From positions 1-40,079 of IMG/VR virus record IMGVR_UViG_3300033149_007553: a DNA stretch of 40,079 bases. One strand, 5' to 3'. Shown piece after piece: positions 2,155 to 25,419 of the stretch. How positions within the stretch are numbered: position 1 is the stretch's first letter; each line of letters begins with the position of its first letter. The notes beneath the pieces are model-generated. The model was not told the origin of the DNA. It made no database searches and worked only from the letters and a program-made list of their open reading frames with translations. This DNA comes from a virus. Made by a program: the position numbers and the translations under genes.

Positions 2155-2200
2155 CCTTCTGTCACCCTCTACATCTGCAGCCGTCCCGGTTTTGTCGCGC
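2155..2200 (-). promoter_or_regulatory. Shared 46-bp bipartite element, copy A
   Basis: Read on the minus strand: GCGCGACA, 13 variable bases, TGCAGATGTAGAGGGTG, three bases, GAAGG. The same blocks with identical spacing recur at 8336-8381 and 25374-25419 on the plus strand. This copy faces the excisionase/integrase genes. The layout resembles a promoter, with an upstream box and a downstream box 17-19 bases later, but the boxes do not match the standard housekeeping consensus. It is proposed as the site of a phage-encoded regulator or sigma factor. Confidence 0.72.
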
Positions 2201-2286
2201 CAAACGTGCGGATCGCAGGCGCAGCCTGCTGGGGAGATCGACGTGGTAGCCTGCCAACGTGCCCCCAACTCCCCCGTTGCCGTTGG

Positions 2287-2300
2287 CGTCAGTACTGACG
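2287..2300. promoter_or_regulatory. 14-bp perfect palindrome
   Basis: CGTCAGTACTGACG reads identically on both strands. It overlaps the stop codon of the metallopeptidase gene and lies about 90 bases upstream of copy A of the shared element, the promoter side for excisionase and integrase. It could be an operator for a dimeric regulator; nothing else supports this. Confidence 0.35.
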
Positions 2301-3206
2301 CGGCGGGCGGCAGTCGCTCAGTTCACCTTCGGGGGCGGTGAGGAACACGAGCAGATGCCGGGCGTACGGGATAACCGCGTAGTGCTCCCTGACGCTGATC
2401 CGATGGTCGGTCTCGACCCAGTCCGCCATCATGCCCAGACCGGAGCCGCACTGCCATTGAGAGAAGTCGGGGGCCTCACCAAGAAAACCACGGGCATCCC
2501 GCGATCGGAATTGCCCGTACAGCCGCCAGTACGCCCCGACATTCGCGAACGCTTCCGATACCCACCCCCAACGGATGCCGAGCTTCCCCTCGTTCTCAGC
2601 GACGGAGAAGACCGCGCAGGGGAAATCGGAGAGCCTCGTCCATCTAACCATCATGCTCGTGAGCGAGATCTGGAAGTCGCGTGCCACGTAGCGGATGTCA
2701 TCAAGGCTGGGCTCCTCACCGACCTCGCGATTGACAATCGGCGCCAGCAGAGACGACGGCATCAAGAGGCCGGCAGCAAATGAATCCGCCTCGAGCTCCA
2801 TCACCATCTCGCAGTAGGACTCGGTGTAGCATGTATACGCTTGGCCGCCTCTCTGCAGGTGATGACGGTGGCGATCCATGAAGTAATGCCCGAGTTCATG
2901 CGCGATCGTGAACCGCACCTTGGGGCAGTGATCGCCGTCATAGTGGCAGATGCGGTCGTAACGCGTGTTGTAGGCGAGGAGAAAGCGGTCGCGCTGAGTC
3001 GCCTTCCTGCGCGGGCAGTAACTCAGCCTGCCATCGAACCTGTCACCGAGGTCGGCGCCCTTCAGGAAGATGACAGGCTCCGCCGCCGCGATGGCGAAGG
3101 GATCAATGGGGTAGTCCGAGCAGCCGAGGATCGCAGCGATTCCCTCGCCCTGGTCGTTTGCCCAGTCGCGGTGGCCCCGCAGCTCCTTCCAGGTAGGCCT
3201 ATGCAT
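2289..3206 (-). CDS. ImmA/IrrE-family metallo-endopeptidase
   Basis: Zinc-dependent peptidase of 305 residues. The HExxH motif is seen as FTIAHELGHYF (about 99-109), with the downstream acidic ligand in MELEADSFAAGLLMP (about 136-150), the standard ImmA/IrrE core. A C-terminal domain of about 150 residues follows. Known family members cleave phage or ICE repressors (ImmA) or DdrO (IrrE). Here no cognate HTH repressor adjoins it. The upstream genes are an acidic small protein and an ECF sigma factor, so the likely substrate is one of those (inference). The start ATG at 3206 overlaps the preceding gene by eight bases (ATGCATAG), implying translational coupling. Confidence 0.88.
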   Translation of the reverse strand: MHRPTWKELRGHRDWANDQGEGIAAILGCSDYPIDPFAIAAAEPVIFLKGADLGDRFDGRLSYCPRRKATQRDRFLLAYNTRYDRICHYDGDHCPKVRFTIAHELGHYFMDRHRHHLQRGGQAYTCYTESYCEMVMELEADSFAAGLLMPSSLLAPIVNREVGEEPSLDDIRYVARDFQISLTSMMVRWTRLSDFPCAVFSVAENEGKLGIRWGWVSEAFANVGAYWRLYGQFRSRDARGFLGEAPDFSQWQCGSGLGMMADWVETDHRISVREHYAVIPYARHLLVFLTAPEGELSDCRPPRQY

Positions 3207-3570
3207 TTTCGTCGTCCACGTCGTTCTCCTCCCCGTCCTCAAGCGCTTCCTCTTCCATCTCCTCCAACAGCTTCTCGATCTCCGGTGGCATCTCCTCGTT
3301 GCGGTTGCGGTAGAGGGCAAGTTCCGCAGCAGGGAGGCCCGCTTCCGCATCGTCCGTCCTGCTCACACCGTGCCCGGCCTGGGCATCGGCCAATGGCTCT
3401 TCACCGCGGACCTTGCGCAGCATGCGCTGAATCGTGGCCTCCGGCAGCGCTTCGCCCCCGATAGCGTCCAGCATGGCGTCGATCTCCTCTGGCGTCTCCG
3501 GCCTGAGCCCCCTGGGCACGATGGCCTTGAAAAGGAGTTCGTTGAGTTCTCTGTCCGTATATTCAGCCAT
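3199..3570 (-). CDS. Acidic small protein between ECF sigma and ImmA; possible sigma partner
   Basis: A 123-residue protein with no domain I recognise. It begins MAEYTDRELNELLFKAI, has a helical middle (DAMLDAIGGEALPEA, TIQRMLRKVRGEEPL) and ends in a very acidic tail of about 30 residues rich in Glu and Asp. The start at 3570 was chosen because the upstream extension of the frame only shadows the sigma gene. It sits 10 bases after the ECF sigma gene and overlaps the metallopeptidase gene, so the three are an operon. Its place suggests an anti-sigma factor or protease-sensitive regulator, which is inference; no membrane segment or zinc motif typical of known anti-sigmas is visible. Confidence 0.75.
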   Translation of the reverse strand: MAEYTDRELNELLFKAIVPRGLRPETPEEIDAMLDAIGGEALPEATIQRMLRKVRGEEPLADAQAGHGVSRTDDAEAGLPAAELALYRNRNEEMPPEIEKLLEEMEEEALEDGEENDVDDENA

Positions 3571-3580
3571 GGTTGTGCAC

Positions 3581-4210
3581 CTAGCGTTCTGTGCCGCTGA
3601 AGCCGCGTTCCGCGAGTTTCCGCCGAAGTGCATCCCTGCCGCGCTTTCGGTACTGCCGGATCGTTCCCGCTGGTATGCCGCCGAGGATCCTGCCCAGCTC
3701 CGCGGCTGGCATCTCCGCCGTCGCTCCCGCGTCTTCGAGCAGGACCTTTCGGTGCGCCTCCGGCAACTCCCGAAGGGCCTCTCGTAGGGCGACCAAGACC
3801 GGCGTTTCTGGGTCCTCAGGTGCTCGGGTCCCGGACTTCTTCTTTGGGGCGGCAAGGTTCTTGAGGTAGTCGTCGCTGACCTGGCGTTCCTGGCACATCG
3901 TTTTGAAGCGTCTGGTCTTCGGGCGATCCAACAACAGGTTCTTCGCGATCTTGAAGAGGTAGCTTCTCACACTGCCCTTGGAGTCATCGTACTGCTCCCG
4001 TTTCTCCCAAAGCCGCATGATGGCCTCGCAGACGATGTCCTCCGCGTCTTCTCGCGTGAGGCGGAACGGAAGCGAGAGCAGCCAGGCCTGGATCGCGGGG
4101 GCGTAGTTCCTGACGATGTCATCGTAGACTGACTCATCCCCGCAGATGATCTTGAGTGCGATGTCTTCGTGGAGATCCGTATCCGTACTTCTTGCTGTCG
4201 CGTCGTCCAT
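3581..4210 (-). CDS. ECF-type RNA polymerase sigma factor
   Basis: A 209-residue sigma factor with only regions 2 and 4. Region 2 spans about 25-105 (EDAEDIVCEAIMRLWEKRE, then SVRSYLFKIAKNLLLDRPK, the region 2.3/2.4 pattern). Region 4 spans about 140-205 (LRELPEAHRKVLLEDA, then the HTH ELGRILGGIPAGTIRQYRKR). A basic linker with APKKKSGTRAPEDPE separates them. It is the first gene of a three-gene operon with an acidic protein and an ImmA-type peptidase, downstream of the 4238-4322 inverted repeats. It could drive its own operon, as many ECF factors do. Its target promoters are not identified here. Confidence 0.9.
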   Translation of the reverse strand: MDDATARSTDTDLHEDIALKIICGDESVYDDIVRNYAPAIQAWLLSLPFRLTREDAEDIVCEAIMRLWEKREQYDDSKGSVRSYLFKIAKNLLLDRPKTRRFKTMCQERQVSDDYLKNLAAPKKKSGTRAPEDPETPVLVALREALRELPEAHRKVLLEDAGATAEMPAAELGRILGGIPAGTIRQYRKRGRDALRRKLAERGFSGTER

Positions 4211-4237
4211 CCTGGCTTACCCTTGCGTCCGCCTCGG

Positions 4238-4322
4238 GTCGTAAGCACATACGACTAGGCGTTACAGATAGGTCGCTCCGGTTCGGGCGGCAGACCGCCA
4301 AGAGCTGTAACGGCTAGTCGTA
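4238..4322. promoter_or_regulatory. Large dyad in the divergent promoter region
   Basis: Left arm TACGACTAGGCGTTACAG (4250-4267) and right arm CTGTAACGGCTAGTCGTA (4305-4322) are inverted copies matching at 17 of 18 positions, 37 bases apart. A further GTCGTA at 4238-4243 forms a smaller dyad with TACGAC at 4250-4255. The region separates the minus-strand ECF sigma operon (start 4210) from the plus-strand DUF2188 gene (start 4492), so it is the natural place for divergent promoters and their operators. The symmetry suggests the same regulator or sigma factor acts in both directions. Confidence 0.65.
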
Positions 4323-4491
4323 ACTGTCAGTGAGGAGACGGTGTGGCAAGATGGTCTCGCCCCATCGATTCTACCTGAAGTCGGCTTGGCCGCAAGGGGG
4401 CGGCCAATTCGACCAACGACAAGACGGACCGACGAAGGCTGGCCGATGGGGCGCGTACACAACGTAAGCCACACGACCAAGGAGTGTTATC

Positions 4492-4719
4492 ATGGCAGCG
4501 AAATCGCATCATGTTGTACCAGACCCGCGTGGCGGATGGAATATTCGCCGAGGCGGCGCTGATCGCATCAGCGGGCACTTCCAGACCAAGGCCGACGCCG
4601 TGGACGCCGCCAGGGAGATCAGCCGGAACCAAGGGACCGAGCTGTTCATCCACGGTCAGAACGGCCAGATCCAGGCCCGCGATAGCCACGGGAACGACCC
4701 CTTCCCGCCCAAGGGATAG
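4492..4719 (+). CDS. DUF2188 domain protein
   Basis: A 75-residue protein matching the DUF2188 pattern almost end to end: HHVVPDPRGGWNIRRGGADR, SGHFQTKADAVDAARE and GTELFIHGQNGQIQARDSHG. The family is widespread in bacteria and phages and has no established function. AAGGAG lies seven bases before the ATG. It is a single-gene unit divergent from the ECF sigma operon, with a GC-rich hairpin just downstream. It may be a lysogenic accessory gene; no function is inferred. Confidence 0.9.
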   Translation: MAAKSHHVVPDPRGGWNIRRGGADRISGHFQTKADAVDAAREISRNQGTELFIHGQNGQIQARDSHGNDPFPPKG

Positions 4720-4736
4720 CGGCCGTCCCTGAACAT

Positions 4737-4778
4737 GCTGGCGTCGCGGGGATAGCGAGAGCCCTCGCGGTCGCCAGC
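4737..4778 (+). terminator. GC-rich hairpin after the DUF2188 gene
   Basis: GCTGGCG (4737-4743) pairs with CGCCAGC (4772-4778), and the inner CGCGGGG pairs partly with CCCTCGCG. No T-run follows. The rest of 4720-5093 holds no gene I can support; it presumably contains the promoter of the 5094 cassette, but no convincing promoter boxes were found. Confidence 0.4.
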
Positions 4779-5093
4779 GCGCCTGGGACCCGGCGGCCGT
4801 CATCATCCTGGACGACAGATTAGGCTGCGGCGAGGGCGATCGAGTCGGCTGGAACAGATCTTGACGGACCGAGCAGCCATCTAGGCAGGCGTAAGCCCGC
4901 CGGAACCTGACCATGGCAGGTTGCTTGGCGACGGTTACGTCGTAGAAAATACTGGTATGGACATGCGTTAGGTCTTGGGCGCCAGCGATGGCGCGCCATT
5001 TGCACATATGGTTCAAGGCAGGGCCACGGACCGGTCCTGTCAACCGTACAAACCTCGGCTGCCGGCATCGTAGGCCGGTGCATGGAGGCCCTC

Positions 5094-6275
5094 ATGGCCA
5101 GCACGTTCACTCCGCATCGTATCTCCTCGCCGCTGATTCTCGAACGCCTCGATCCGAAGGTCCTCTATCGGCTGCTCAAGAAGTACCAGACGTTCTTCGC
5201 GGCCGAGAAGGTCATGCCGGTGTCGCCGGGCAAGGTCGATTACGACCGACTGGCGCTTGTTCTGGCCGTGCCCACTGAGCAGATGCCCGGCCACCTGATG
5301 GCCGACCTATTCTACTGGGACGAGGTCGCCGAGATGGGGCAGATCGAGGACCTGAACGAGATCGCCGACAGGCACGGGATCACCTATGGCGACAAGGTCA
5401 CCATCGAGGAGGCGGCGCTGCTGGTGCGGATGGGCGCGCCGGAGGCCCTCGAAGACCTTCACGCCGTCTACCACGCCCACGGCCTGCTGCGGAAGAAGAA
5501 GCGTTTCTTGTCCTACTTCGCCACGGTAAAGCAGTTACCCACATGGCGCAGGCCTGCCCAGAAGGCCTTGGACTCGTTAGCGCTGGACATGGACATGTGG
5601 TACGACGCCCAGAAGAAGGGCCGGGGCACGCGCGTGTCGGTCATCGAAAAGACGGATGCCGCGTGGGTCATCGTGCGGCACGGAGGCACGTTCAAGCGCG
5701 AGAACGCTCTCGAGAACGGCGAGCCGCGGATCGTCTTCTACCGCCCGGAGGCCTACGACCTGCTCATCTACTACCACCAGCAGGGCGAGCTGGCCATCTA
5801 CAACGACAGCAGGGGCGCGAAGGAGCGGCGGGCCTACTGCACGTATCTGGGCAAGAACCTGTTTGGCGACCCGGATTTCTTCGAGCGGGCTGACGCCAAG
5901 AAGTACACGTTGGAACCACTCCGCACCAAGGGCCGGGCGGCGATGGACTGCACCGAGGTACCCGGACTCGATGCGGCCCGGCTGACCCATCTCCGGTACC
6001 AGTTCAACGGGCCTAACCAGCACTGCGTGATACACAGGGCCGCGGACGTTTTCGCCGGGCTGGAGGATCTGGGCGATCAGATTCCCGAGGAGGCCGAGCT
6101 GGTGTGCATGGGCGTGAAGCTGACGCCGAAGGGCGGGCTGGGCGGCGAGAGAACCGTCAAGCTCTACGCCCCGAACGTCTCGGTCTACGACCATGAATCC
6201 GATGCGGAGTTCGCCCACCAATTCCTCGTCACCCAGGGGTTCATCCTCCCGCGGAACGGAGCCGGGCACCCGTGA
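5094..6275 (+). CDS. Protein of unknown function, first gene of an isolated two-gene cassette
   Basis: A 393-residue cytoplasmic protein without signal peptide or membrane segments. The N-terminal part (about 1-60) contains LERLDPKVLYRLLKKYQTFF and a conserved-looking VDYDRLALVL. A middle helical region is followed by a beta-rich C-terminal half. From memory its start resembles unnamed bacterial proteins beginning with a LLxxYxxFF...DYDxLAxVL pattern, but I cannot assign a family. The ATG at 5094 is chosen over 5082 because GGAGG sits five bases before it. The stop overlaps the GTG of the next gene by four bases (GTGA), so the two are translationally coupled. The location between lysogeny and replication blocks, with its own terminator, is typical of phage-borne accessory (moron) or defence genes. 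Confidence 0.8.
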   Translation: MASTFTPHRISSPLILERLDPKVLYRLLKKYQTFFAAEKVMPVSPGKVDYDRLALVLAVPTEQMPGHLMADLFYWDEVAEMGQIEDLNEIADRHGITYGDKVTIEEAALLVRMGAPEALEDLHAVYHAHGLLRKKKRFLSYFATVKQLPTWRRPAQKALDSLALDMDMWYDAQKKGRGTRVSVIEKTDAAWVIVRHGGTFKRENALENGEPRIVFYRPEAYDLLIYYHQQGELAIYNDSRGAKERRAYCTYLGKNLFGDPDFFERADAKKYTLEPLRTKGRAAMDCTEVPGLDAARLTHLRYQFNGPNQHCVIHRAADVFAGLEDLGDQIPEEAELVCMGVKLTPKGGLGGERTVKLYAPNVSVYDHESDAEFAHQFLVTQGFILPRNGAGHP

Positions 6276-7537
6276 TCCGGTTGGACGGGTTCTGGGACTT
6301 GATCTCGTACCGGCCCGGCCTGGCGGCCGGTGCCGACGAATGGAGGCGAGCTCTCGGGGACCGTGGTTGGCGAGCTCTTCATGGGCAGCTGTTCGTCGGC
6401 GATGGGGTCGTCCGCACATGCGCTCGTTCCGATGGTCGGGCGTTCCGCGTTGTGCCCATGTCGGGGGGCGCGTACGCCCTCGTCTGCCCTGTGACCGGTA
6501 ACGTCGAGCAGGTTGGCCTGGCTGAACCGGATGTCAGGGCGTTCCGGTTGAACGTCACGGCACTGCGGTCCGAGGTTGCTGAGGCCCTGGGGGTCACGCC
6601 CGATCCGCAGCCGGTGTGGGAGGCGCCTCGTGCGTTCCCGCTTGGGACATGGGCCCCCATCCCCGGTGCGAACATTCCTGCATTCATGATGTTGCCGCCA
6701 ACGGCACGGCTGCTGAGGTCGGAGGTCTCCCGGCTCCTGATCGAGTGCGACCGAGGGTTCCTCCTCTTCGTACCGAAACAGCCCAAGCTGCCGAGCTCGC
6801 TTCGGGCCCAACTCGATCGTCAAGGGGCAGCGATCATTCCGCTGGCAGAGACCGTCGTATGCGACTCCGCGGGGCGATTCTCGGCGTCGTCTTCCTGGGG
6901 AACCTATCAGAACGCCTACTGCCAACGGCATATGGCTGACCAGATGGTCCCGGCGGAGCCGGAATATCAGTTCGCCAAGCGCGGGATGTGGGCACTGCGG
7001 TTCGCCGGCAAGGCCACCTATCTGGGGGGTGATCTGAAGGGCGCCGCCTTCATCCATCATCTAATCCGACATCAGGGGCAGGAAATCCATGTGATCCGCC
7101 TGATGGCCGACGTCGCCGGTGCAGAGCGCGCCCAAGCCACTGCCGAGGCGGAGGGGCTGGAGTTTGCTGCGAGCAACGGCGGCGACCTCGTGGACGAGAA
7201 GACGATCCGCGAATGTCGGGAGAGGTATGAGGAGCTTGAGGCCGAGCGGGAGGAGGCCCGTCGAGCGGGCGACAAGGCACGACTCGCGCGCATCCAGGAA
7301 GAGGTCGGGAAGATCGCGGCGTACCTGTCCAACTCACTGGGCCTCGGAGGTCGGTCTCGCAAGGCCATTGATGATGTCTCCAAGGTCCGACGGCGGATCG
7401 CCCGCGTTATCAACATCACTATCGACAAGATCGAGGAGAACGACCCCGATCTCGCTACTCACCTTCGAAACTCGATAAGGACCCATATCAACATGTGTTA
7501 CGCGCCCGACCGTCCCGTGCACTGGGCGCTGGAATGA
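6272..7537 (+). CDS. Protein of unknown function with a conserved C-terminal regulatory-type module
   Basis: A 421-residue protein starting with GTG at 6272. The N-terminal half (about 1-215) is not recognised. The C-terminal half has two parts: RFAGKATYLGGDLKGAAFIH...GQEIHV (about 230-275), and a helical, charged segment with YEELEAEREEARRAGDKARL, a LGLGGRSRKA turn, RIARVINITIDKIEE and HLRNSIRTHINMCYAPD. From memory this arrangement (YRxRLxEL...GD..RA...LGLGGRxR...I.TG..C.Y.P) ends many uncharacterised bacterial signalling ATPases and regulators, often with a winged-helix-like fold. It may form a complex with the product of the overlapping upstream gene. A strong terminator follows about 100 bases downstream. 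Confidence 0.8.
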   Translation: MIRLDGFWDLISYRPGLAAGADEWRRALGDRGWRALHGQLFVGDGVVRTCARSDGRAFRVVPMSGGAYALVCPVTGNVEQVGLAEPDVRAFRLNVTALRSEVAEALGVTPDPQPVWEAPRAFPLGTWAPIPGANIPAFMMLPPTARLLRSEVSRLLIECDRGFLLFVPKQPKLPSSLRAQLDRQGAAIIPLAETVVCDSAGRFSASSSWGTYQNAYCQRHMADQMVPAEPEYQFAKRGMWALRFAGKATYLGGDLKGAAFIHHLIRHQGQEIHVIRLMADVAGAERAQATAEAEGLEFAASNGGDLVDEKTIRECRERYEELEAEREEARRAGDKARLARIQEEVGKIAAYLSNSLGLGGRSRKAIDDVSKVRRRIARVINITIDKIEENDPDLATHLRNSIRTHINMCYAPDRPVHWALE

Positions 7538-7548
7538 AGAAAAACCTG

Positions 7549-7590
7549 AAGTCACGCCCAACGTGACTTGGTCACGCCGCGTGTGACGCC
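7549..7590. promoter_or_regulatory. Cluster of GTCACG/CGTGAC half-sites
   Basis: AAGTCACG (7549-7556) and CGTGACTT (7562-7569) form a perfect 8-bp inverted repeat with a five-base centre. GGTCACGCC and GTGTGACGCC follow directly, and AAGTCACAC occurs again at 7622. Five related half-sites in about 80 bases between two transcription units suggest an operator. The sites overlap the 3' untranslated region of the 6272 gene and precede the phage sigma gene. Confidence 0.45.
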
Positions 7591-7633
7591 CCGCCGGTGA
7601 AGAGCGAAAGCCGGCGAGGCTAAGTCACACAGC

Positions 7634-7680
7634 AAGGCCCGCTGAAGCGCTCCCGCCGGTGTTCTTCAGCGGGCCTTTTT
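7634..7680 (+). terminator. Strong rho-independent terminator
   Basis: AAGGCCCGCTGAAG (7634-7647) pairs perfectly with CTTCAGCGGGCCTT (7664-7677) around a 16-base loop, and the stem runs into TTTTT (7676-7680). It ends the two-gene cassette and separates it from the phage sigma gene, whose start lies 25-30 bases further on. Confidence 0.85.
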
Positions 7681-7710
7681 CGCGCCCCCGGGCGCGGGAA
7701 AGGCGTGATC

Positions 7711-8349
7711 GTGAAGAACACGGCCTTCGACCGGCGGGCGGTCTCCCCGGACCGCGAAACCCTCCCTTCTCATCCCCAGCAGCAGGTCAGCCAGCCCCCA
7801 GCGGAGCAGCTGATCGACGACTACGCGCTGGAGCGGATCGACTTCCGTGTCCGGCGCCTGGCAATCCAGTTCGACCTGTCTGAAGACGAGCAAGAGGACT
7901 ACCGCCACGACATGGTGGTGGAGCTGCTCTCGGCGTTCGACCGGTTCGACCCGGGCAAGGCGAAACGCGAGACGTTCGTCAATCGCGTACTGGACAAGTT
8001 CGTCAAGTACGCGACGCGCATCCGGTGCACGCACAAGCGCCGGCCGTGCGACAGCCCGCTCGGCTTCGATGACGTCACCTTGGGCTTCCAGCCCGTGGTG
8101 AACGATCCGCGCTCCGGGCAGATCGACGAGCAGGGCCGCGTGGAGCTCCGCCTGGACATGGAGGACGCATTGGCCCGCATGCCCGAGCGGCTCCAGCGGG
8201 TGTGCCGCGTGCTGATGGAGTTCGACCCCGCCGAAGCGGCCGAGCAACTGGGCATCTGTCGCCAGTCCATCTACCGCAACATCGCCGAAATCCGTCCGTA
8301 CTTGGCCGCGGCAGGTCTGAAAATGCCGGGCAACAGCGCGACAGATTGA
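7711..8349 (+). CDS. Phage-encoded sigma-70 family sigma factor
   Basis: About 212 residues; it may start at GTG 7705 or GTG 7711 (the GGGAAAGG upstream suits 7711 better). Region 2 is visible at about 40-110 (EDEQEDYRHDMVVELLSAFDRFDP, then RETFVNRVLDKFVKYATRI). Region 4 is at about 145-205 with an HTH, EAAEQLGICRQSIYRNIAEI. It opens the rightward replication block, and its last codons contain the first box of copy B of the shared element. Phage sigma factors usually redirect host polymerase to phage promoters, so the three shared elements are its likely targets (inference). It differs clearly from the ECF factor at 3581-4210. Confidence 0.86.
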   Translation: MKNTAFDRRAVSPDRETLPSHPQQQVSQPPAEQLIDDYALERIDFRVRRLAIQFDLSEDEQEDYRHDMVVELLSAFDRFDPGKAKRETFVNRVLDKFVKYATRIRCTHKRRPCDSPLGFDDVTLGFQPVVNDPRSGQIDEQGRVELRLDMEDALARMPERLQRVCRVLMEFDPAEAAEQLGICRQSIYRNIAEIRPYLAAAGLKMPGNSATD

Positions 8350-8381
8350 CGCCAGGTGCAGATGTAGAGGGTGCCGGAAGG
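8336..8381 (+). promoter_or_regulatory. Shared 46-bp bipartite element, copy B
   Basis: GCGCGACA (8336-8343), 13 bases, TGCAGATGTAGAGGGTG (8357-8373), three bases, GAAGG (8377-8381). The first box lies within the last codons of the sigma gene. The second ends just before the ribosome site of the RecE-like gene, so it heads the recombination and replication operon. If it is a promoter, the transcript leader is only about 15-25 bases long. Spacing is identical to copies A and C. Confidence 0.75.
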
Positions 8382-8413
8382 GAGCGAAAACCATGGACGA
8401 CACCCTCTACATC
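8361..8413 (+). promoter_or_regulatory. 13-bp perfect inverted repeat around a ribosome site and start codon
   Basis: GATGTAGAGGGTG (8361-8373), the core of the shared element, is perfectly complementary to CACCCTCTACATC (8401-8413), which encodes residues 3 to 7 of the RecE-like protein. The 27-base loop holds GGAAGGGAG and the ATG at 8393. In RNA reading through from the sigma gene this would present the start site in the loop of a 13-bp stem. A transcript starting at copy B itself may lack the left arm. Confidence 0.6.
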
Positions 8414-9208
8414 GACCTGGACATCCTGAGTTGCGAGACCGCCGAGGAGTACCACGCGAAGGCGGGCGAGTTCCTCAGCAGCCACCAGCTGCTGGACTTC
8501 ATCAAGTGCCCCTGGCTGCACCGGAAGAAGGCCTTGGGCATGATCGAGGAGAAGGACTCGCCCGCCTACCTCGTGGGTCGGGCGGCGCACGTCCGAATCC
8601 TGGAGGGGCGCGATGCTTACGAGGGGGCGTTCGCCCTCGGCGGGCCCACCAACCCCAAGACCGGTAAGCCGTACGGCGCCAGGACGAAGGCGTTCGCGGA
8701 ATGGGCCCAGGCCCAGGGCAAGCCGGTCCTCTCCCATGACCACGTCGAGCTGATCGAGCAGATGGCCTCCGGCGTGGCCATGAACGACGAGGCCGTCGAC
8801 TTGCTGCTCTACGGCCGGGCGGAGGGCGTGGTGCGGGCCGACTACTGCGGCGTGCCGTGCCAGGCGCGGATCGACTGGATTCACCCGCACCGGGGCATCG
8901 TGGACTTCAAGACGTGCGACGACCTGACCTGGTTCGAGTCCGACGCCCGTCGCTTCGGCTACCACCGGCAGATGGCCTTCTACCACGCGGTGCTGGCGCA
9001 GGCGCTCGGCGGGCTGCTCGTGCCGGTCCACCTGGTCGCGGTCGAGAAGAGGGAGCCCTTCCGTTGCGGCGTATGGCGCGTCAGCGACGACACTCTGGCC
9101 ATCGCCCAGCGGGAGAACGAGGCGGCGATCCGCCGGCTGGCGGCCTGCCGCCAGACCGACCACTGGCCCACCGGCTACGAGGAGGTCCGCATCCTCGATG
9201 TGGCGTGA
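8393..9208 (+). CDS. RecE-like PD-(D/E)XK exonuclease
   Basis: A 271-residue protein of the phage RecE/exodeoxyribonuclease VIII-like type (PD-(D/E)XK fold). The early motif is YLVGRAAHVRILEG (about 58-72), matching the G-xx-xH element of RecB-like nucleases. The catalytic pair is ARIDWIHPHRGIVDFKTCDD (about 157-177), with Asp, Asp and Lys of the DFK motif. It would resect DNA ends for phage recombination. It starts the early operon and is followed by a Sak4-like ATPase and a DUF669 protein, a typical recombination set. The ATG at 8393 has GGAAGGGAG upstream. Confidence 0.85.
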   Translation: MDDTLYIDLDILSCETAEEYHAKAGEFLSSHQLLDFIKCPWLHRKKALGMIEEKDSPAYLVGRAAHVRILEGRDAYEGAFALGGPTNPKTGKPYGARTKAFAEWAQAQGKPVLSHDHVELIEQMASGVAMNDEAVDLLLYGRAEGVVRADYCGVPCQARIDWIHPHRGIVDFKTCDDLTWFESDARRFGYHRQMAFYHAVLAQALGGLLVPVHLVAVEKREPFRCGVWRVSDDTLAIAQRENEAAIRRLAACRQTDHWPTGYEEVRILDVA

Positions 9209-9215
9209 GCATTCC

Positions 9216-9271
9216 GCGCCCGGGCGGCTTGCGGCGAGTCCACCAACCGCGACGGCCGCCCGCCCGGGCGC
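9216..9271. repeat. 12-bp inverted repeat in an intergenic gap
   Basis: GCGCCCGGGCGG (9216-9227) and CCGCCCGGGCGC (9260-9271) are perfect complements 32 bases apart. They lie in the 172-base gap between the RecE-like gene and the ATPase gene. A strong RNA hairpin here could weaken read-through or protect mRNA. There is no T-run, so it is not a classical terminator. Confidence 0.5.
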
Positions 9272-9380
9272 ATCTTGACGGAACCGGGGACCGGGGCCTC
9301 CGGGCCGCGATGGAGCGCGGCCTGGAGCCTCGGCCCGGCTGAACGACGTGACGAGAACCACCAGCGACGAGGAACAGCAC

Positions 9381-10115
9381 ATGACACTCATGGAGACACT
9401 GATCACCGCGACCACGCCGGCGCCGCCGAAGATGATCGTCTACGGCCAGCCGGGCGTGGGCAAGACGACGTTCGCCCGCTCGGCGAACGCGATCCTGATC
9501 GACTGCGAGAACGGCGCCGGGGCCGTGCCCGGGCTGACGCGCACGCCGTACCTCCAGACGTGGCCGGAGATGCGGAAGTGGCTTTCCGAGCTGGCCTCCA
9601 CGCCGCCGGACGGCGTCCCCGCCGTGGCCGTCGACACCATCGACTGGATGGTCCAGCGGATCGTCGAGCACGTCGTCGTCGATCTCGACGACAAGTCGCC
9701 CAACGACATCACCAACACGCTCGGCACGGCGCACGGGGGCTACTTCAAGGCGCGGGAGATCGTGCAGAACATCGTCTACCGCGACGTTCTGCCGATGCTC
9801 AATGCCATCGCCGGCCACGGCATCGCGATCATCCTCCTGGCCCATGCGGCCAACACGAAGATGACCACGCCGGAGGGCTTCGACCTTCGCCTGGCCGCGC
9901 CGGACCTGCCCCACTGGATCGCCCCACCCTTCATCGAGTGGGCGGACTGCGTGCTGTACGCCGCCCGGGACGGCGAGAAGCGCATCCTCAAGACCGAGGG
10001 GTCGAACGTCATTCTCGCCAAGAACCGCTACTCCCTGCCCGCCGAGCTGGAGCTGTCGTGGCCGGCGCTGATGCGGGCCTTTACCGAGAACACCACCCAC
10101 AGCAAGGAGAACTGA
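9381..10115 (+). CDS. Sak4-like RecA-fold ATPase
   Basis: A 244-residue single-domain ATPase. The Walker A motif is YGQPGVGKTTF near the N terminus (about 22-31), and a Walker B-like VPAVAVDTIDWM lies at about 80-91. A further strand, GIAIILLAHA (about 148-157), matches the RecA-fold pattern of phage AAA_24/Sak4 recombination proteins. Such proteins assist annealing or strand exchange together with an SSB. The ATG at 9381 is preferred over an upstream one because GAGGAA lies seven bases ahead. The DUF669 gene begins four bases after the stop. Confidence 0.85.
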   Translation: MTLMETLITATTPAPPKMIVYGQPGVGKTTFARSANAILIDCENGAGAVPGLTRTPYLQTWPEMRKWLSELASTPPDGVPAVAVDTIDWMVQRIVEHVVVDLDDKSPNDITNTLGTAHGGYFKAREIVQNIVYRDVLPMLNAIAGHGIAIILLAHAANTKMTTPEGFDLRLAAPDLPHWIAPPFIEWADCVLYAARDGEKRILKTEGSNVILAKNRYSLPAELELSWPALMRAFTENTTHSKEN

Positions 10116-10119
10116 CCCC

Positions 10120-10578
10120 ATGGCGAACCTGAACGGATTCAACGCGAACGAAGTCGAACCGAACACCGCCCTCGACCCGCTGCCGGCGGGCAAGTACCTG
10201 GCCGCCATCACTGCCAGCGAGATGAAGCCGACCAAGGCCGGCGACGGCAGCTACCTTCAGCTCGAGTTCACCGTCGTCGACGGCGACTGCAAGGGCCGGA
10301 AGGTCTGGGACCGGCTGTGTCTGAACCACCCGAACCAGCAGACGGTCAAAATCGCCCGCGGCAACCTGTCGGCCATCTGCCGCGCGGTCGGCGTGATGCA
10401 GCCGAAGGACTCCGTGGAGCTGCACAACATCCCCCTGGTCATCACCGTCAAGCTCAAGAAGCGGGACGACACCGGCGAGCTGGCCAACGAGGTGCGCGGC
10501 TACGCGAAGAAGGAGACGGCCGCGGGCCAGCCGCAGCAGGCCCCGGCGACCGACAGCACGCCGCCCTGGAAGCGCTGA
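10120..10578 (+). CDS. DUF669 protein, likely phage ssDNA-binding protein
   Basis: A 152-residue protein with the DUF669 layout: a short N-terminal segment (NEVEPNTALDPLPAGKYLAAI), then YLQLEFTVVDGDCKGRKVWDRL (about 45-66), ending in a flexible tail with PPWKR. DUF669 proteins are found in phage recombination operons beside Sak/Sak4-type recombinases and resemble OB-fold SSBs in their disordered tail ending in a short motif. It probably coats single-stranded DNA during replication and recombination. Confidence 0.85.
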   Translation: MANLNGFNANEVEPNTALDPLPAGKYLAAITASEMKPTKAGDGSYLQLEFTVVDGDCKGRKVWDRLCLNHPNQQTVKIARGNLSAICRAVGVMQPKDSVELHNIPLVITVKLKKRDDTGELANEVRGYAKKETAAGQPQQAPATDSTPPWKR

Positions 10579-19915: not shown

Positions 19916-19923
19916 TACGGGCG

Positions 19924-20457: not shown

Positions 20458-20550
20458 CGTCTGTCGCCCTTTGCCCTGCGCGGCCTTCGGCCGGCAATCC
20501 CGCAGCTTCGCGATCTTATAGCACGTGACTCTCGTCAGCACAACTGCGAG

Positions 20551-20575: not shown

Positions 20576-20601
20576 TCGTGGGTGGTGGGATGAGGCGCGA
20601 G

Positions 20602-21237
20602 CTACCTGGCCAGCTCGAACTTGCCGCGGTCGACCTTGCGGAAGCGGCTGTCATCGCCCTTCTTCTGGCACTCGCGCAAGATGGCGGCGTAGATTGTGGC
20701 CGCGGGGGTCTTGCCCTGCGTCTGCCAGTAGCCCTTGGCCAGCATCCGCTCGGCCATCTGCTTCGTGTTGAGCGGCTCGCCGGCTTCGGCCAGGACCTGC
20801 GCCGCGGCGTCCAGGCCGCTCGGCTTGCGCTGCTTGGCGGGCTTGTCGGCCTTGGGCTGGCGCTTCTTCTTCTCGGCCGCGACGGCCTGCATGGCGGAAT
20901 TGACTGCGTCGGCCTTCGTGGCCTCCGTGATTCCGCCGCGCTTCTTGCGGGCCGTCGGCACCTTGACGCCCTTCGTCAGATCGCCCTTCTCGACGGCCTC
21001 GACTGTGGCAGCCACGCCTGCCTGCCGGTCAGGCAGGTCGGGCTTGGCTTTCTCGCCGGGTCCGCGCGTCTCGTGACGGAGGCGCTGGGCGCTCTTGATG
21101 CGGACCTTCTTCTTCGTCGTGATGTTCGTCGCGTCCCACCCGCCTCGCGGGTTCTCCGCGTCGATGCGGACGGTCGCCATCCGACCGGACACCTTCGCGG
21201 CGTAGAAGCCGCCCACTTTGACCTCGTCCTTCTTCAT
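20602..21237 (-). CDS. HARE-HTH winged-helix protein
   Basis: A 211-residue basic protein. The N terminus (about 1-50) is beta-rich and KOW-like (VKVGGFYAAKVSGRMATVRI). A lysine- and alanine-rich linker follows. The C-terminal 70 residues match the HARE-HTH domain: SGLDAAAQVLAEAGEPLNTK, MAERMLAKGYW, and a conserved end, RFRKVDRGKFELA. HARE-HTH domains bind DNA or link chromatin and restriction proteins. Residues about 69-75 (LPDRQAG) are encoded by a 21-bp palindrome also present in an unrelated gene at 35904. It is the last gene of a minus-strand operon opposite to its surroundings. Confidence 0.85.
   Translation of the reverse strand: MKKDEVKVGGFYAAKVSGRMATVRIDAENPRGGWDATNITTKKKVRIKSAQRLRHETRGPGEKAKPDLPDRQAGVAATVEAVEKGDLTKGVKVPTARKKRGGITEATKADAVNSAMQAVAAEKKKRQPKADKPAKQRKPSGLDAAAQVLAEAGEPLNTKQMAERMLAKGYWQTQGKTPAATIYAAILRECQKKGDDSRFRKVDRGKFELAR
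21017..21037. repeat. 21-bp palindromic repeat, copy 1
   Basis: The arms CCTGCCTG and CAGGCAGG surround a CCGGT-type centre; on the minus strand the whole element is identical at all 21 bases to 35904-35924. It lies inside the HARE-HTH gene, is read there as LPDRQAG, and sits in the linker between the two folded parts, where an insertion would be tolerated. Confidence 0.8.
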
Positions 21238-21265
21238 CGCTGCATCTCCTCGTGCTGGGGGCCTG

Positions 21266-21442
21266 CTACGAGGCCCAGTCCTTCAGGAACGCGACCCACT
21301 CGTCGCGCGTCATCGGTTCGTGCGCTTCGGTCGCCTCGTCGTCCTCGACCCGCCACAGCGATGGGTCGATCGGGTCGGCCGACACCCGGACTCGCCCGCG
21401 TGCGAGGCGATTGGCCTGCTCGATGGTCAGCGTCTGGTCCAT
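21266..21442 (-). CDS. Small acidic protein of unknown function
   Basis: A 58-residue protein starting MDQTLTIEQANRLARGRVRV, with a C terminus TRDEWVAFLKDWAS. AAGGAG lies upstream of the ATG at 21442. The reading frame extends further upstream, but that part only shadows the neighbouring gene. It is in the minus-strand operon, 17 bases after the previous stop. No family is recognised. Confidence 0.68.
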   Translation of the reverse strand: MDQTLTIEQANRLARGRVRVSADPIDPSLWRVEDDEATEAHEPMTRDEWVAFLKDWAS

Positions 21443-21459
21443 GCGGTTCTCCTTGGCGT

Positions 21460-21897
21460 TCAGATGCCCAGCTCGTCGTACAGGCGGTTGAGCTGCTCTG
21501 GCCCGCCGACGAGGTCGATGAGCGTATCGGCGAACCAACGGACCTGGCGGTTGACGGCCTCGTCGTTCGTTCGGACGGATTCGAGGTGCGCCACCATCGC
21601 TGCCACGGTCTGCGGCGAGAGGTTCTCGCGGAGTGCGTCGGACAGGGAATCGACGGCCTTGTCATGCCGAACCGGCTTCTGGCCGGCGGCGTGGTCGCGG
21701 TCCCAGAACGCCAGGATCTCGTCGTCGCTGTAGCCCTTGCGGCGGAAGTACGCCAAGTCGCTGGGCGAGAACATCGGGTGGCTGGCGATGCGCTCGGCGG
21801 TTGTCGGCGCGTCGTCGTCCTGGCGTTCCGGGACGGTCACGCGGACCTTCCGGCCGGCGTGCTCCGCCTCGTACGTCTTGGGTCGTTTGCGATCCAT
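21460..21897 (-). CDS. Unknown small protein of the minus-strand operon
   Basis: A 145-residue soluble protein. The N-terminal quarter is short and basic (MDRKRPKTYEAEHAGRKVRV). A helical segment follows, with SPSDLAYFRRKGYSDDEILA and FWDRDHAAGQ, then a C-terminal helix pair ending EQLNRLYDELGI. The SDLAYFRRKGYSDDEI part has the look of a small helical interaction motif. No family is identified. Its start is 15 bases after the upstream 59-residue gene. Confidence 0.72.
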   Translation of the reverse strand: MDRKRPKTYEAEHAGRKVRVTVPERQDDDAPTTAERIASHPMFSPSDLAYFRRKGYSDDEILAFWDRDHAAGQKPVRHDKAVDSLSDALRENLSPQTVAAMVAHLESVRTNDEAVNRQVRWFADTLIDLVGGPEQLNRLYDELGI

Positions 21898-21912
21898 GGT
21901 CGATCCTCCCGC

Positions 21913-22092
21913 TCAGCGGCTCTGTACGACGGTCAGTTGGAACGTGGTGCCGTCCTTGCACCGCACCACGACGCCGCGGTTGCGTGTCAGGACGCCGGCC
22001 TCCTCGAACGTCCGGACGCTGGCGACCTCCGGGACGATCTCCTCGTCCTGGAGCGTCTCGTACAGCATGGTTTCCATCTCGATCTCGTTCAT
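21913..22092 (-). CDS. 59-residue small protein
   Basis: A short open frame with a strong AAGGAGA ribosome site five bases before the ATG at 22092. The product begins MNEIEMETMLYETLQDEEIV, has a middle VRTFEEAGVLTRNRGVVV and ends CKDGTTFQLTVVQSR. The beta-strand pattern in the second half suggests a small folded domain. It stands in tandem with the other minus-strand genes, and the spacing and ribosome site make it credible despite its size. Function unknown. Confidence 0.7.
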   Translation of the reverse strand: MNEIEMETMLYETLQDEEIVPEVASVRTFEEAGVLTRNRGVVVRCKDGTTFQLTVVQSR

Positions 22093-22166
22093 GTTGGTCT
22101 CCTTCTGCCGGGTAGCGCCGGCTGCGCCGCCGACGTCCGGCCGTCCGGGCGCCCGCGGCGGGGCCG

Positions 22167-22196
22167 CCTGCCCGCCGTAGCCTCGGCGGAGGCAGG
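22167..22196. repeat. Palindromic repeat between small genes
   Basis: CCTGCC...GGCAGG ends enclose complementary inner arms (CCGCC/GGCGG) around GTAGCCTC. It resembles the 21-bp palindromes at 21017 and 35904 in its outer CCTGCC/GGCAGG bases and belongs to a widespread style of REP-like element. It lies in the 117-base gap between two small genes. Confidence 0.6.
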
Positions 22197-22209
22197 GGCC
22201 CCGCGCCGG

Positions 22210-22478
22210 TCAGTCCTCGAAGGTGGCGATCGCCCGCCGGTACTCGGCGACGTCGCCGTTGGTCCCGCGGTAGCCGTCGAGGTGCTGCTGGAGGTCTCGG
22301 GCGACCTTGTAGTTCTCGTTGCAGCTCCAGGCGTCGGCCAGCAGCCGGAAGGGCTTCCGGACCACGCAGGTCCGCCCGTCCTTCGTCTCGATGGCCTTCA
22401 CCAGCCGGTGGAGCGGCCATCGCGGGTGATGGTCGCCGTGCCGTTGGGGCCTTCGATGTCGATCCGCGTCGTCTTCAT
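22210..22478 (-). pseudogene. Small protein gene with a one-base frameshift
   Basis: Translation from the ATG at 22478 (AGGAGAAG upstream) gives MKTTRIDIEGPNGTATITRD and then GRSTGW with a TGA at 22398. From about 22405 the continuation lies in another frame: RLVKAIETKDGRTCVVRKPF, followed by LLADAWSCNENYKVARDLQQ and ending EYRRAIATFED at 22210. The two halves would make one protein of about 89 residues if a single base were added near 22405. Either the gene is broken, the assembly has a base missing, or a ribosomal frameshift is used. No slippery motif is obvious. Confidence 0.65.
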
Positions 22479-22490
22479 GGCGTGCTTCTC

Positions 22491-22703
22491 CTACTCGGCG
22501 TGCAGTGCGATGATGGTCCGGGGCGTGTACCCGCACCGGCGGGCCTCGGCGTTGATGGCCTTGCGGACGGCGCTGCCCGGCAGGGCAGCCAGGTAGATGC
22601 CCGCCAGGCGCTTCCATCCCAGCCGCTCGATGCGGCGCCGGCCGTCGCGACCGATGGCCATCATCCACTCGTGCGTCTGGGCCTTGGGGTTCCTCGTTCT
22701 CAT
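22491..22703 (-). CDS. Small basic protein, first gene of the minus-strand operon
   Basis: A 70-residue protein starting MRTRNPKAQTHEWMMAIGRD, with a basic helical middle (RRRIERLGWKRLAGIYLAAL) and end RRCGYTPRTIIALHAE. AAGGA lies six bases before the ATG at 22703; an in-frame ATG at 22724 is possible but has no ribosome site. The strongly basic helices suggest DNA or RNA binding; no family is recognised. It is closest to the dyad-rich divergent region at 22728-22880. Confidence 0.65.
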   Translation of the reverse strand: MRTRNPKAQTHEWMMAIGRDGRRRIERLGWKRLAGIYLAALPGSAVRKAINAEARRCGYTPRTIIALHAE

Positions 22704-22727
22704 CGTAAGTCCTTTTTTATCCATGGC

Positions 22728-22880
22728 TTGCCTTCCCATTTGCCACTGACATGTTTGCTCGACCGGCGGCACATGGGAAGGCAATTCCGGCCCCCGCCGC
22801 CAGAATCTCCCGCCCGTAACTGGCGCACATATCGCCGCTTACGACATGTGGCGGAGATTCTCGCCGGAATGTGCCGCTCC
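22728..22880. promoter_or_regulatory. Dyad-rich divergent control region before the packaging genes
   Basis: TTGCCTTCCCAT (22728-22739) and ATGGGAAGGCAA (22773-22784) are a perfect 12-bp inverted repeat. AGAATCTCC (22802-22810) and GGAGATTCT (22853-22861) form a second pair. CCGGCGGCACA (22763-22773) is partly complementary to TGTGCCGCTCCGG (about 22868-22880). The region separates the minus-strand operon (start 22703) from the plus-strand packaging genes (start 22901), so it probably carries both promoters and their operators. Confidence 0.55.
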
Positions 22881-22900
22881 GGTGGCAGGAGGACATGCCC

Positions 22901-23101
22901 ATGAGCGAGACGGGGCCCAGCCTGACGGCGCTGACCGTCGCCCAGGCCGCCAAGGTGCTCAGCGCCGCCGGCGGGCGGCGGATCACCGAGGAGATGCTCC
23001 GCGCGGACATCGACGCCGGCGCGCCGGTCAACGCCGACGGCACGCTCAACCTGGTGCACTACACGGCCTGGCTCGTGCGGGAGGTAGCCGGTGGCGATTG
23101 A
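22901..23101 (+). CDS. Small HTH protein, probable terminase small subunit
   Basis: A 66-residue protein: SLTALTVAQAAKVLSAAGGR, ITEEMLRADIDAGAPVNADG, NLVHYTAWLVRE. The ALTVAQAAKVLS and ITEEMLRADI segments look like a short HTH. It overlaps the large terminase gene by 11 bases, the usual place for a small subunit that recognises the packaging site. The same ITExxLR...AG...NLxxYxAWL pattern occurs at the N terminus of the large subunit. The start at 22901 is set by AGGAGGA eight bases upstream. Confidence 0.7.
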   Translation: MSETGPSLTALTVAQAAKVLSAAGGRRITEEMLRADIDAGAPVNADGTLNLVHYTAWLVREVAGGD

Positions 23102-25358
23102 CCCGCGCCAACTCCGCCCGTCGATGCTGACGCGGATGCTGAACTCCACGCCGTTGGGCGAGGTGATCAGCGAACGGCAGTTGCGCCGCCATCGGAACCG
23201 GGCCGGCTACCGCATCGGCGACGAGAAGCACGTGGATCTGTTCCGCTACGCCGCCTGGCTGGCGTGGCTGCGCCACGATCCCGCGCCCGCGAAGGAGCCG
23301 GCCGACTACGAGGCGATGAAGGAGGCCGCCCGCGCACGCAACGCTGAGCTGTCGGCCATCGGCCGGGATATCGGCGACATCCCCGAGGTGATCGACTTGG
23401 AGCGGAAGGCGCAGGCCGAGATGGACTTCCGGTTCTTCTGCGAGGCCTACTTCCCGCAGACGTTCAGCCTGCCGTGGTCCGACGACCACCTGAAGGTGAT
23501 CGCCAAGATCGAGCAGGCGGTCCTCCGCGGCGGGCTGTTCGCCATGGCCATGCCGCGTGGCAGCGGCAAGACAACGCTGGCCGAGACGGCCTGCATCTGG
23601 GCGATGCTGACCGGGGCGCGGGAGTTCGTCTGCCTGATCGGCTCGGACGCCGGGCACGCCCGGAGCATGCTCGAGAGCGTCAAGGTCGAGTTCGAGACCA
23701 ACGACCGGCTCCTGGATGACTACCCCGAAGCGGTCTACCCGATCCACCGGCTGGAGCGCATCCACAACCGGGCCAAGGGCCAGCTCTGCAACGGCCAGCA
23801 CACGCGGATCGTCTGGACGGCCGACGAGATCGTCCTGCCGACGATCCCGGACTCCAAGGCGTCCGGCGCGATCATCCGCGTGGCCGGCATTGAGAGCCGC
23901 ATCCGCGGCATGAAGTTCAAGCGCGCCGACGGCCGGGCCGTCCGCCCGTCCCTGGTAGTGCTTGACGATCCACAGACCGACGAGTCGGCTCGCAGCGATC
24001 AGCAGGTCCGCTCCAGGATGGAGACGCTCAACGGCGCGATCCTGAACCTCGCCGGGCCGGGCCAGAAGATCTCCGGCATCATGCCCTGCACGGTCATTCG
24101 TCCGGGCGACATGGCCGACCAGATCCTCGACCGCGACAGGCACCCGGCGTGGCAGGGCGAACGGACGAAACTGGTCTACGCCTTCCCCGCGAACGAGAAG
24201 CTCTGGGAGCGGTACGTCCAGATCCGGGCCGACAGCTTTCGCAACGACGGCGACGGCCACGAGGCCACGGAGTTCTACCGTCTGCACCGCGAGGAGATGG
24301 ATGCCGGCGCCGTCGTGGCCTGGCCGGAGCGGCACAACGAGGACGAACTCTCGGCCATCCAGCACGCGATGAATCTCAAGCTCCAGGATGAGCGGGCGTT
24401 CTGGGCCGAGTACCAGAACGAACCGCTGCCGGAGGACGAGGGGGACCCGGACCAGCTTCCGGCCGACGAGATCGCGGCCAAGGTGAACGGCCACGGGCGC
24501 GGGGAGGTGCCTATCGGGGCGAGCCACCTGACGATGTTCATCGACGTGCAGGGCAAGGTGCTGTTCCACGTTGTGGTCGCCTGGGAGGACGACTTCACCG
24601 GCTACGTTGTCGATTACGGCACGTACCCCGACCAGCGGCGGGCGTACTTCACGCTGCGCGACGCCCAGAAGACACTGGGCCGGGCCGCGCCCGGGGCCGG
24701 CCTGGAAGGCTCGATCTACGCCGGGCTGGAGAAGCTCACGGGCGACTACCTGTCCCGCCGCTGGCGGCGCGACGACGGCGCGGAGATGCAGATCGAGCGC
24801 TGCTTGATCGACGCCAACTGGGGCCAGTCCACCGACGTGGTCTACCAGTTCTGCCGGCAGAGCGGGCGCTCGGCCATCGTGATGCCCAGCCACGGGCGCT
24901 ACGTTGGGGCCTCCAGCGTGCCCTTCAGCGAGTACAAGCGGAAGCGAGGCGAGCGGATCGGCCACCACTGGCGCATCCCGAACACCCAGGGCCGGCGGCA
25001 GGTGCGCCATGTGCTGATCGACACGAACTACTGGAAGAGCTTCGTCCACGCGCGCCTGGCCGTGGCCATGGGCGACCCGGGCTGCCTGTCGCTGTTCGGC
25101 CGCAAGCCGGCTGAGCACCAGCTCCTGGCGGAGCACCTCACCGCCGAGTACCGCGTGCGGACCGAGGCGCGAGGGCGGGTGGTCGACGAGTGGAAGCTCC
25201 GAGCCGGCAGCCCGGACAACCACTGGCTGGACTGCCTGGTCGGCTGCGCCGTCGCGGCCTCCATCCAGGGGGCCGTGTTGCCGGGCACGGACCTCAAGGC
25301 GCCTCCGGCACGACCACGGATGAAGCTATCGGAGATTCAGCGGGCGCATCGGGGGTGA
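23091..25358 (+). CDS. terL: Terminase large subunit, GpA type
   Basis: A 755-residue packaging motor. An N-terminal HTH-like segment (about 8-60, ISERQLRRHRNRAGYRIGDE then VDLFRYAAWLAWL) precedes the ATPase. Walker A is MAMPRGSGKTTLAE (about 152-165), and Walker B is SLVVLDDPQTDES (about 285-297). The nuclease part begins with MFIDVQGKVLF (about 481-491) and has LIDANWGQSTDV (about 572-583) and DNHWLDCLVG near the end, as in phage GpA/lambda gpA-like terminases. It cuts concatemers and pumps DNA into proheads. The GTG start has GGGAGG upstream. Confidence 0.93.
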   Translation: MAIDPRQLRPSMLTRMLNSTPLGEVISERQLRRHRNRAGYRIGDEKHVDLFRYAAWLAWLRHDPAPAKEPADYEAMKEAARARNAELSAIGRDIGDIPEVIDLERKAQAEMDFRFFCEAYFPQTFSLPWSDDHLKVIAKIEQAVLRGGLFAMAMPRGSGKTTLAETACIWAMLTGAREFVCLIGSDAGHARSMLESVKVEFETNDRLLDDYPEAVYPIHRLERIHNRAKGQLCNGQHTRIVWTADEIVLPTIPDSKASGAIIRVAGIESRIRGMKFKRADGRAVRPSLVVLDDPQTDESARSDQQVRSRMETLNGAILNLAGPGQKISGIMPCTVIRPGDMADQILDRDRHPAWQGERTKLVYAFPANEKLWERYVQIRADSFRNDGDGHEATEFYRLHREEMDAGAVVAWPERHNEDELSAIQHAMNLKLQDERAFWAEYQNEPLPEDEGDPDQLPADEIAAKVNGHGRGEVPIGASHLTMFIDVQGKVLFHVVVAWEDDFTGYVVDYGTYPDQRRAYFTLRDAQKTLGRAAPGAGLEGSIYAGLEKLTGDYLSRRWRRDDGAEMQIERCLIDANWGQSTDVVYQFCRQSGRSAIVMPSHGRYVGASSVPFSEYKRKRGERIGHHWRIPNTQGRRQVRHVLIDTNYWKSFVHARLAVAMGDPGCLSLFGRKPAEHQLLAEHLTAEYRVRTEARGRVVDEWKLRAGSPDNHWLDCLVGCAVAASIQGAVLPGTDLKAPPARPRMKLSEIQRAHRG

Positions 25359-25373
25359 GATTCCGGGGATTCA

Positions 25374-25419
25374 GCGCGACAAAAACGGCCCGACTGCAGA
25401 TGTAGAGGGTGCAGGAAGG
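25374..25419 (+). promoter_or_regulatory. Shared 46-bp bipartite element, copy C
   Basis: GCGCGACA (25374-25381), 13 bases, TGCAGATGTAGAGGGTG (25395-25411), three bases, GAAGG (25415-25419), overlapping the ribosome site of the next gene. It stands in the 73-base gap after the terminase gene and heads the portal-to-tail operon. Spacing is identical to copies A and B. Confidence 0.75.

Follow-up and report, generated by a model that had tools for sequence, protein, structure and literature searches.

A repeated two-box element as the probable promoter of a phage-encoded sigma factor in viruses of Planctomycetota

A 46-base element built of two boxes occurs three times in the IMG/VR virus record IMGVR_UViG_3300033149_007553, a stretch of 40,079 bases that was analyzed at its full length and is referred to below as the window. 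Comparison of this element across related phages led us to conclude that it is probably the sigma-specific promoter of the phage's own sigma factor and drives a dedicated regulon, a reading to which we assign a rough probability of 0.86. The host phylum of the window, judged from its relatives, would be Planctomycetota, and a virus of these bacteria very probably turns on its excision, recombination and particle genes with a sigma factor of its own.

Results

Three exact copies of the element precede three phage modules

The element reads GCGCGACA-N13-TGCAGATGTAGAGGGTG-N3-GAAGG, and its 8- and 17-base boxes are identical in all three window copies. Copy A (2155-2200, minus strand; 38-base pattern at 2163-2200) lies ahead of genes for an excisionase (HTH_17/AlpA-like; 1867-2100, minus strand) and a tyrosine integrase (1-1755, minus strand). 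Copy B (8336-8381, plus strand; pattern at 8336-8373) precedes the recombination/replication block, whose first gene encodes a DUF3799 (exonuclease VIII-like) protein (8393-9208, plus strand) and which includes genes for a Sak4-like annealing ATPase (9348-10115, plus strand) and a single-stranded DNA-binding-like protein (DUF669; 10120-10578, plus strand). Copy C (25374-25419, plus strand; pattern at 25374-25411) precedes the portal-to-tail block, which opens with a conserved 65-amino-acid gene (25432-25629, plus strand) followed by the gene of a lambda-family portal protein (25629-27047, plus strand). A first-pass annotation of the window had placed excisionase/integrase, recombination/replication and portal-to-tail units behind the three copies. 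The excisionase/integrase, exonuclease/Sak4 and portal genes were found as described, with one correction concerning the large terminase subunit gene, which lies upstream of copy C and not behind it.

The positions given in that annotation were exact. A pattern scan of the whole window returned the three copies with zero mismatches to the 38-base pattern and no further copy at up to three mismatches, and the pattern was absent from 100 dinucleotide shuffles of the window (chance expectation zero), which rules out a chance repeat as the origin of the copies. The 13-base spacers differ in sequence and are constant in length, and N3 plus GAAGG follows in all three copies, again as annotated. The boxes had been said not to fit the housekeeping promoter, and no site meeting the housekeeping consensus was found within 1800-9000 of the window. 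The gene proposed to encode the reader of the element, an extracytoplasmic function (ECF)-like phage sigma factor (7705-8349, plus strand; phrog_1740, E 2e-12), does terminate within copy B, with a stop codon at 8347-8349.

The element recurs ahead of matching modules in related phages

Pattern scans of viral contigs and bacterial genomes yielded about 20 further viral contigs, mostly with the same downstream genes, together with three Planctomycetota genome contigs. A search of relatives had been the check proposed for the original annotation, and the element was indeed found ahead of the matching modules: it precedes the 65-amino-acid/portal gene in at least 10 contigs (G001, G003, G004, G005, G006, G007, G013, G014, G015 and G017), the DUF3799 exonuclease gene in at least five (G005, G006, G008, G016 and G019) and the excisionase gene in three (G002 and G006 among them). 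It also heads operons of a DUF2924 gene and a serine integrase gene in G016, G034, G166 and G376a, so that the integration module behind the element is either of the tyrosine type (the window, G006 and G002) or, in the latter four, of the non-homologous serine type.

In the joined set of phage contigs and loci, 41 of 43 3' boxes (TGCAGATRTAG) are preceded by GNRACR at a distance of exactly 13 bases, a count that partly reflects selection because most loci were fetched with the 13-base pattern; loci fetched by their sigma gene instead (G034, G166 and G376) agree. The two 3' boxes without a 5' box are both in G412, whose sigma is non-canonical.

Any match to the element at up to one mismatch was present in 7 of 392 Planctomycetota genomes, and those with multiple copies are prophage carriers; the element is therefore not a host feature, and we rejected a host regulon. 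Five unrelated contigs (L020, L024, L028, L031 and L032) were set aside as chance matches to a short pattern, diverging after TGCAGATGTAG. Two local variations were also seen. L007 has a canonical copy at 5661 (minus strand) and, at 8571-8620, a further copy with two mismatches (GCAACG-N13-TGCAGATGTAGA) that precedes a small gene. In L116 (G034:C376) the 3' end of the sigma gene, the element and the first part of the exonuclease gene are duplicated locally, at 9069-9535.

The element is tied to one clade of ECF-like sigma factors

By its domain content the product of 7705-8349 is classed as a two-domain, sigma2-sigma4, ECF-like protein, which as a sigma factor would bind core polymerase and start transcription. 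Sigma70_r2 was found in 8 of 8 members of this sigma family (best 1e-6), while region 4, weak by Pfam, matches domain 4 of SigL by fold (template modeling (TM) score 0.65). The sigma profile matches ECF sigmas in the PDB (CnrH, SigE) over both regions, and the best PDB matches in a fold search were SigE, CnrH and SigH. Regions 2 and 4 are present and region 3 is missing, the layout of group IV (ECF-like) factors. No close relative of the window sigma was found among 50,697 deposited phages, and no linked anti-sigma was recognized.

Further sigma loci were obtained by a profile search of the 392 Planctomycetota genomes, and 40 sigma genes were examined in all. Phages with the same sigma and without the motif had been named at the outset as the observation that would speak against the proposal; all 13 sigmas with E < 1e-50 are accompanied by the element, its 5' box lying -62 to +13 nucleotides (nt) from the sigma stop codon, and the canonical element was found at the gene end in 0 of the 27 weaker sigmas. 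The TAG of the 3' box doubles as the sigma stop codon in 5 of the 13 close relatives. In a tree, one supported branch (98/97) holds all 13 element-linked sigmas and, in addition, five rows, mostly long-branched, that lack the element. Sigma identity within that branch goes down to about 30%, and the boxes are nevertheless kept.

A homologue of the 7705-8349 sigma, with the element at the end of its gene, is encoded by each of the viral contigs that carry the element and extend into the early region; among the candidate readers, this sigma alone occurs in every element-bearing phage covering that region. We considered as counter-examples nine contigs that carry the element and no sigma gene (G001, G003, G004, G007, G009, G013, G014, G015 and G017), as well as G020-G024, in which the element match is due to chance. 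All of these also lack the DUF3799 block, so we read them as structural-region fragments or chance matches and not as exceptions. The features expected of a promoter class of a phage sigma were both found, namely a repeated non-housekeeping element ahead of modules and specificity of that element to the sigma gene across phages.

Boxes change jointly within a phage and several distant sigmas have private elements

The copies of one phage tend to share the same box variant. All copies in G034 read GAGACA..TGCAGATGTAGT, all three in G166 read GCGACA..TGCAGATATAGA, both in prophage G376c read GGGACA..GATATAGACAGTG, and those of G376a and G376b have GCAAC[AG]; GATATAGA is a further box variant that changes jointly at unlinked sites within one phage. 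Among 25 copies from 10 phages, boxes differed at 2.30 of 26 positions within phages versus 5.04 between phages, with 0 of 2000 permutations as extreme, and spacers at 5.60 of 13 positions within versus 6.72 between. Had the copies arisen by recent duplication, their spacers should be alike; the divergence of the spacers indicates that they are not recent duplicates. A joint shift of the boxes at unlinked sites while the spacers drift points instead to a trans-acting factor that affects every copy. Genome G376 (L119-L121, L136-L141 and L167) holds at least three related prophages with variant elements and a fourth sigma locus.

Gene order is conserved in phages whose sigma homologues are weaker, but their elements differ. 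In G256, CCCACAGA..CGAACATACCTAATAGG occurs where the sigma gene ends and again before the portal block and before a gene for a primase/helicase, and G410a carries GTCACA..TTTCTCCGGTA..AATAGG at the sigma end and ahead of the excisionase/integrase genes. Pairs of elements were likewise found at the sigma and excisionase genes in G010b (CCCGACA..CGCCGGTAGGTAATGGGGAC), at the sigma gene and the serine-integrase operon in G010 and G048, and at the sigma gene and the terminase operon in G076; G132 and G178 have weaker pairs of that kind, and G033, G064 and G410b have further pairs. When upstream regions named beforehand were compared in these non-canonical phages, within-phage matches exceeded cross-phage ones (permutation p 4e-4). 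Positive within-phage cases matched at 24-33 of 38 positions, and the cross-phage maximum was 25 apart from one related pair.

Putative promoter geometry and a proposed circuit

The start codon lies 17 nt past the T of TGCAG in G005, G014, G017 and G019 and 18 nt past it in G016, and conservation of the N-terminal sequence PLVRLGQG after the DUF3799 start codons indicates that this start is used. If the transcript begins at the start codon, GCGACA is located at -36 to -31 and ATGTAG at -12 to -7, which is the spacing of sigma70-family promoters. By extension from these short-leader relatives, transcription in the window is predicted to start near 2162 (minus strand), 8374 (plus strand) and 25412 (plus strand), and the latter two starts would give leaders of about 20 nt beginning just before the Shine-Dalgarno sequence. 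At copy A the excisionase start codon is 79 nt past the T of TGCAG, and the distance is likewise 79-80 nt in G006 and G002.

From these comparisons we infer a promoter role for the element, its reading by this sigma, the start sites above and an order of events. The 5' box GCGACA would serve as -35 element and the ATGTAG contained in TGCAGATGTAGAGGG as -10 element, both recognized by host RNA polymerase with the ECF-like sigma of 7705-8349 bound to it. Upon prophage induction or infection, sigma would be made from the early operon (5082-8349) and would then start three modules together, excisionase/integrase from copy A, recombination/replication from copy B and portal-to-tail from copy C, with the recombination-block promoter overlapping the last part of that sigma's own gene. 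In the serine-integrase phages the integrase operon is co-oriented with the sigma gene and leads into it, which makes a positive loop possible; in the window the two are divergent.

A predicted RNA hairpin at copy B

A hairpin predicted for the RNA brings together the 3' box of copy B and exonuclease codons 3-9 and encloses the ribosome-binding site (minimum free energy -37.7 kcal/mol, z -5.7). Its 5' arm (8352-8373, plus strand) comprises the 3' box and preceding bases, and its 3' arm (8401-8420, plus strand) lies inside the exonuclease coding sequence, where an exact inverted copy of GATGTAGAGGGTG occupies 8401-8413; the Shine-Dalgarno sequence and the AUG are in the loop. The hairpin is also predicted in G006 (z -4.8) and partly in G376a and G376b. 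A comparable fold was absent at copy C (z +0.9) and at the B site of G008 and G376c. Two pairs have changed on both sides (C-G to U-A and G-C to A-U), several are kept by wobble and one is broken, a pattern drawn from few independent lineages and to which codon constraint contributes. A message begun near 8374 has lost the whole 5' arm and shows no fold (8370-8425, z +0.8). The hairpin is therefore predicted to mask the exonuclease ribosome-binding site in read-through mRNA only.

Discussion

The first-pass annotation had proposed a dedicated phage regulon, read either by the phage's own sigma or by another phage regulator. The placement of the element in relatives, its tie to one sigma clade, the joint changes of the boxes and the private elements of several distant phages all support the first of these options, and the second is disfavored because the second sigma factor of the window, the IrrE peptidase and the early proteins g397 and g421 are each missing from some element-bearing phage. 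On that second option the element would be an operator or activator site of g397, g421 or the second sigma (3581-4210), and the 7705-8349 sigma a mere neighbor. In its favor, many of these phages have g397 and g421, for neither of which a function was recognized, ahead of the sigma gene, and the second sigma is the clearer ECF factor. However, g397 is missing from G166, G376c and G016, the last of which has three element copies; g421 is at best marginal in G016, where it fails the family profile and gives a weak single-seed profile match (2e-8); and, of the canonical-element phages, the window and G006 alone have the second sigma and IrrE. A pair of boxes spaced as in a promoter and placed directly before start codons also fits a sigma better than an operator, and we regard another regulator as unlikely.

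We consider it less likely still that the element acts in RNA, as a conserved 5' leader controlling translation or stability of the three messages. At copy B the 3' box does contribute an arm to a strong hairpin, partly covarying, that covers a ribosome-binding site, but the fold does not extend to copy C or to the B sites of G008 and G376c, and the start codon 17-18 nt past the start of the 3' box in several phages leaves no room for a two-box leader, unless transcription were to begin upstream of a box located inside the sigma gene. The presence of three near-identical copies in one genome, one of them at a module border beside the integrase gene, would also suit recombination, packaging or replication sites, or the footprints of a small spreading repeat. 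This is very improbable given that all copies point into the gene behind them, that the spacers vary freely while the boxes hold, and that the element is used again before integrase operons that are not homologous.

Several observations weigh against a promoter of the phage's own sigma. The excisionase genes of G376b and G376c have no copy of the element in front, and about 12 distant sigma loci yielded no recurring private element by these methods. An undirected whole-contig repeat test gave p < 0.05 in only 11 of 31 loci (Fisher p 1e-4 overall); GC-rich coding sequence yields many chance matches, which accounts for the weakness of this test, and it was superseded by the comparison of upstream regions chosen in advance, controlled across phages. 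Scored by itself, the window sigma falls under the Pfam cut-offs, and its structure model is middling (predicted local distance difference test (pLDDT) 75, predicted TM score (pTM) 0.41) with a poorly placed linker. Finally, sigma gene and element are adjacent and their shared history is partly linkage, so the argument rests on the unlinked copies.

Like bacterial ECF (group IV) sigmas, whose promoter boxes include the GGAAC / CGTC type, the phage factor combines a sigma2-sigma4 architecture with a putative bipartite, fixed-spacing promoter; unlike them, it has a sequence under the Pfam cut-offs and boxes that are not of that type. In phage T4, late genes e, soc and 49 have a ribosome-binding site that a hairpin conceals in the read-through message, and the message from the late promoter begins inside or after the 5' arm. 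The hairpin-masked start at copy B resembles this arrangement in another phage with another sigma, although here it is predicted only, strongly in G006, partly in G376a and G376b and not in other relatives. The late operon of the prophage PBSX is driven by Xpf. This Bacillus subtilis prophage protein is small and group IV sigma-like and is listed as a positive control factor (PMC10141391), and by that description the window sigma can be likened to it. The two differ in phage lineage and host phylum, and the regulon proposed here adds excision/integration and recombination modules, places one promoter inside the sigma gene 3' end and has its own promoter sequence in each phage lineage. Sigma subunits by which phages redirect the host polymerase to their own genes also include SPO1 gp28 and gp34 and T4 gp55 (PMC9429907). 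The window factor is likewise phage-encoded, but SPO1 and T4 are lytic and use timed middle or late classes, whereas the present phages carry integrases and their putative regulon includes an excision module. Phage-encoded sigmas with their own promoters are thus already known; what would be new is the phage group, the breadth of the regulon, the embedded promoter and the lineage-specific promoter sequences. A literature search for such a system found no paper, and lytic control in Planctomycetota phages was undescribed in the literature searched.

A broader view, for which we see about even odds, is that Planctomycetota prophages represent a radiation of sigma-promoter pairs, in which each lineage's private promoter is reused across its excision, replication and packaging modules so that neighbors in one host do not cross-fire, and in which the copy B promoter doubles as the hairpin arm that blocks exonuclease translation from read-through message until sigma acts. 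The circuit proposed here is concrete and testable in phages that are uncultured. More than 12 naturally matched sigma-promoter pairs, with both sides varying, would be useful for understanding promoter choice by ECF-type factors and are a potential source of mutually independent expression parts. With four related sigma loci, three of which have their own variant elements, G376 would offer a natural case of insulation among co-resident prophages and suits the study of cross-talk.

Other features of the window

The 3' part of a tRNA gene lies at the left end of the window (1-61), adjoining the integrase gene; it is likely the attachment site, and a partial tRNA beside the integrase at the window start is an arrangement as in a prophage. 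Upstream of the sigma gene are the genes of two conserved early proteins without assigned function, g397 (5082-6275, plus strand) and g421 (6272-7537, plus strand). These usually directly precede the sigma gene and form a single fused protein in L130; neither had a family match, and sequence profiles against solved structures yielded nothing useful. The window has a second sigma gene, of more typical ECF type (3581-4210, minus strand), which the first-pass annotation did not mention. It is followed by a small gene (about 3350-3570) and then by a CapP-like IrrE peptidase gene (2289-3350; capP model 5e-36). This region may sense damage and act as the switch by which the early operon is released. 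The stretch separating the second sigma gene from that operon contains an 18-nt inverted repeat (4250-4322; TACGACTAGGCGTTACAG / CTGTAACGGCTAGTCGTA) with 94% complementarity and 37 nt between its arms, which resembles a divergent pair of promoters or operators.

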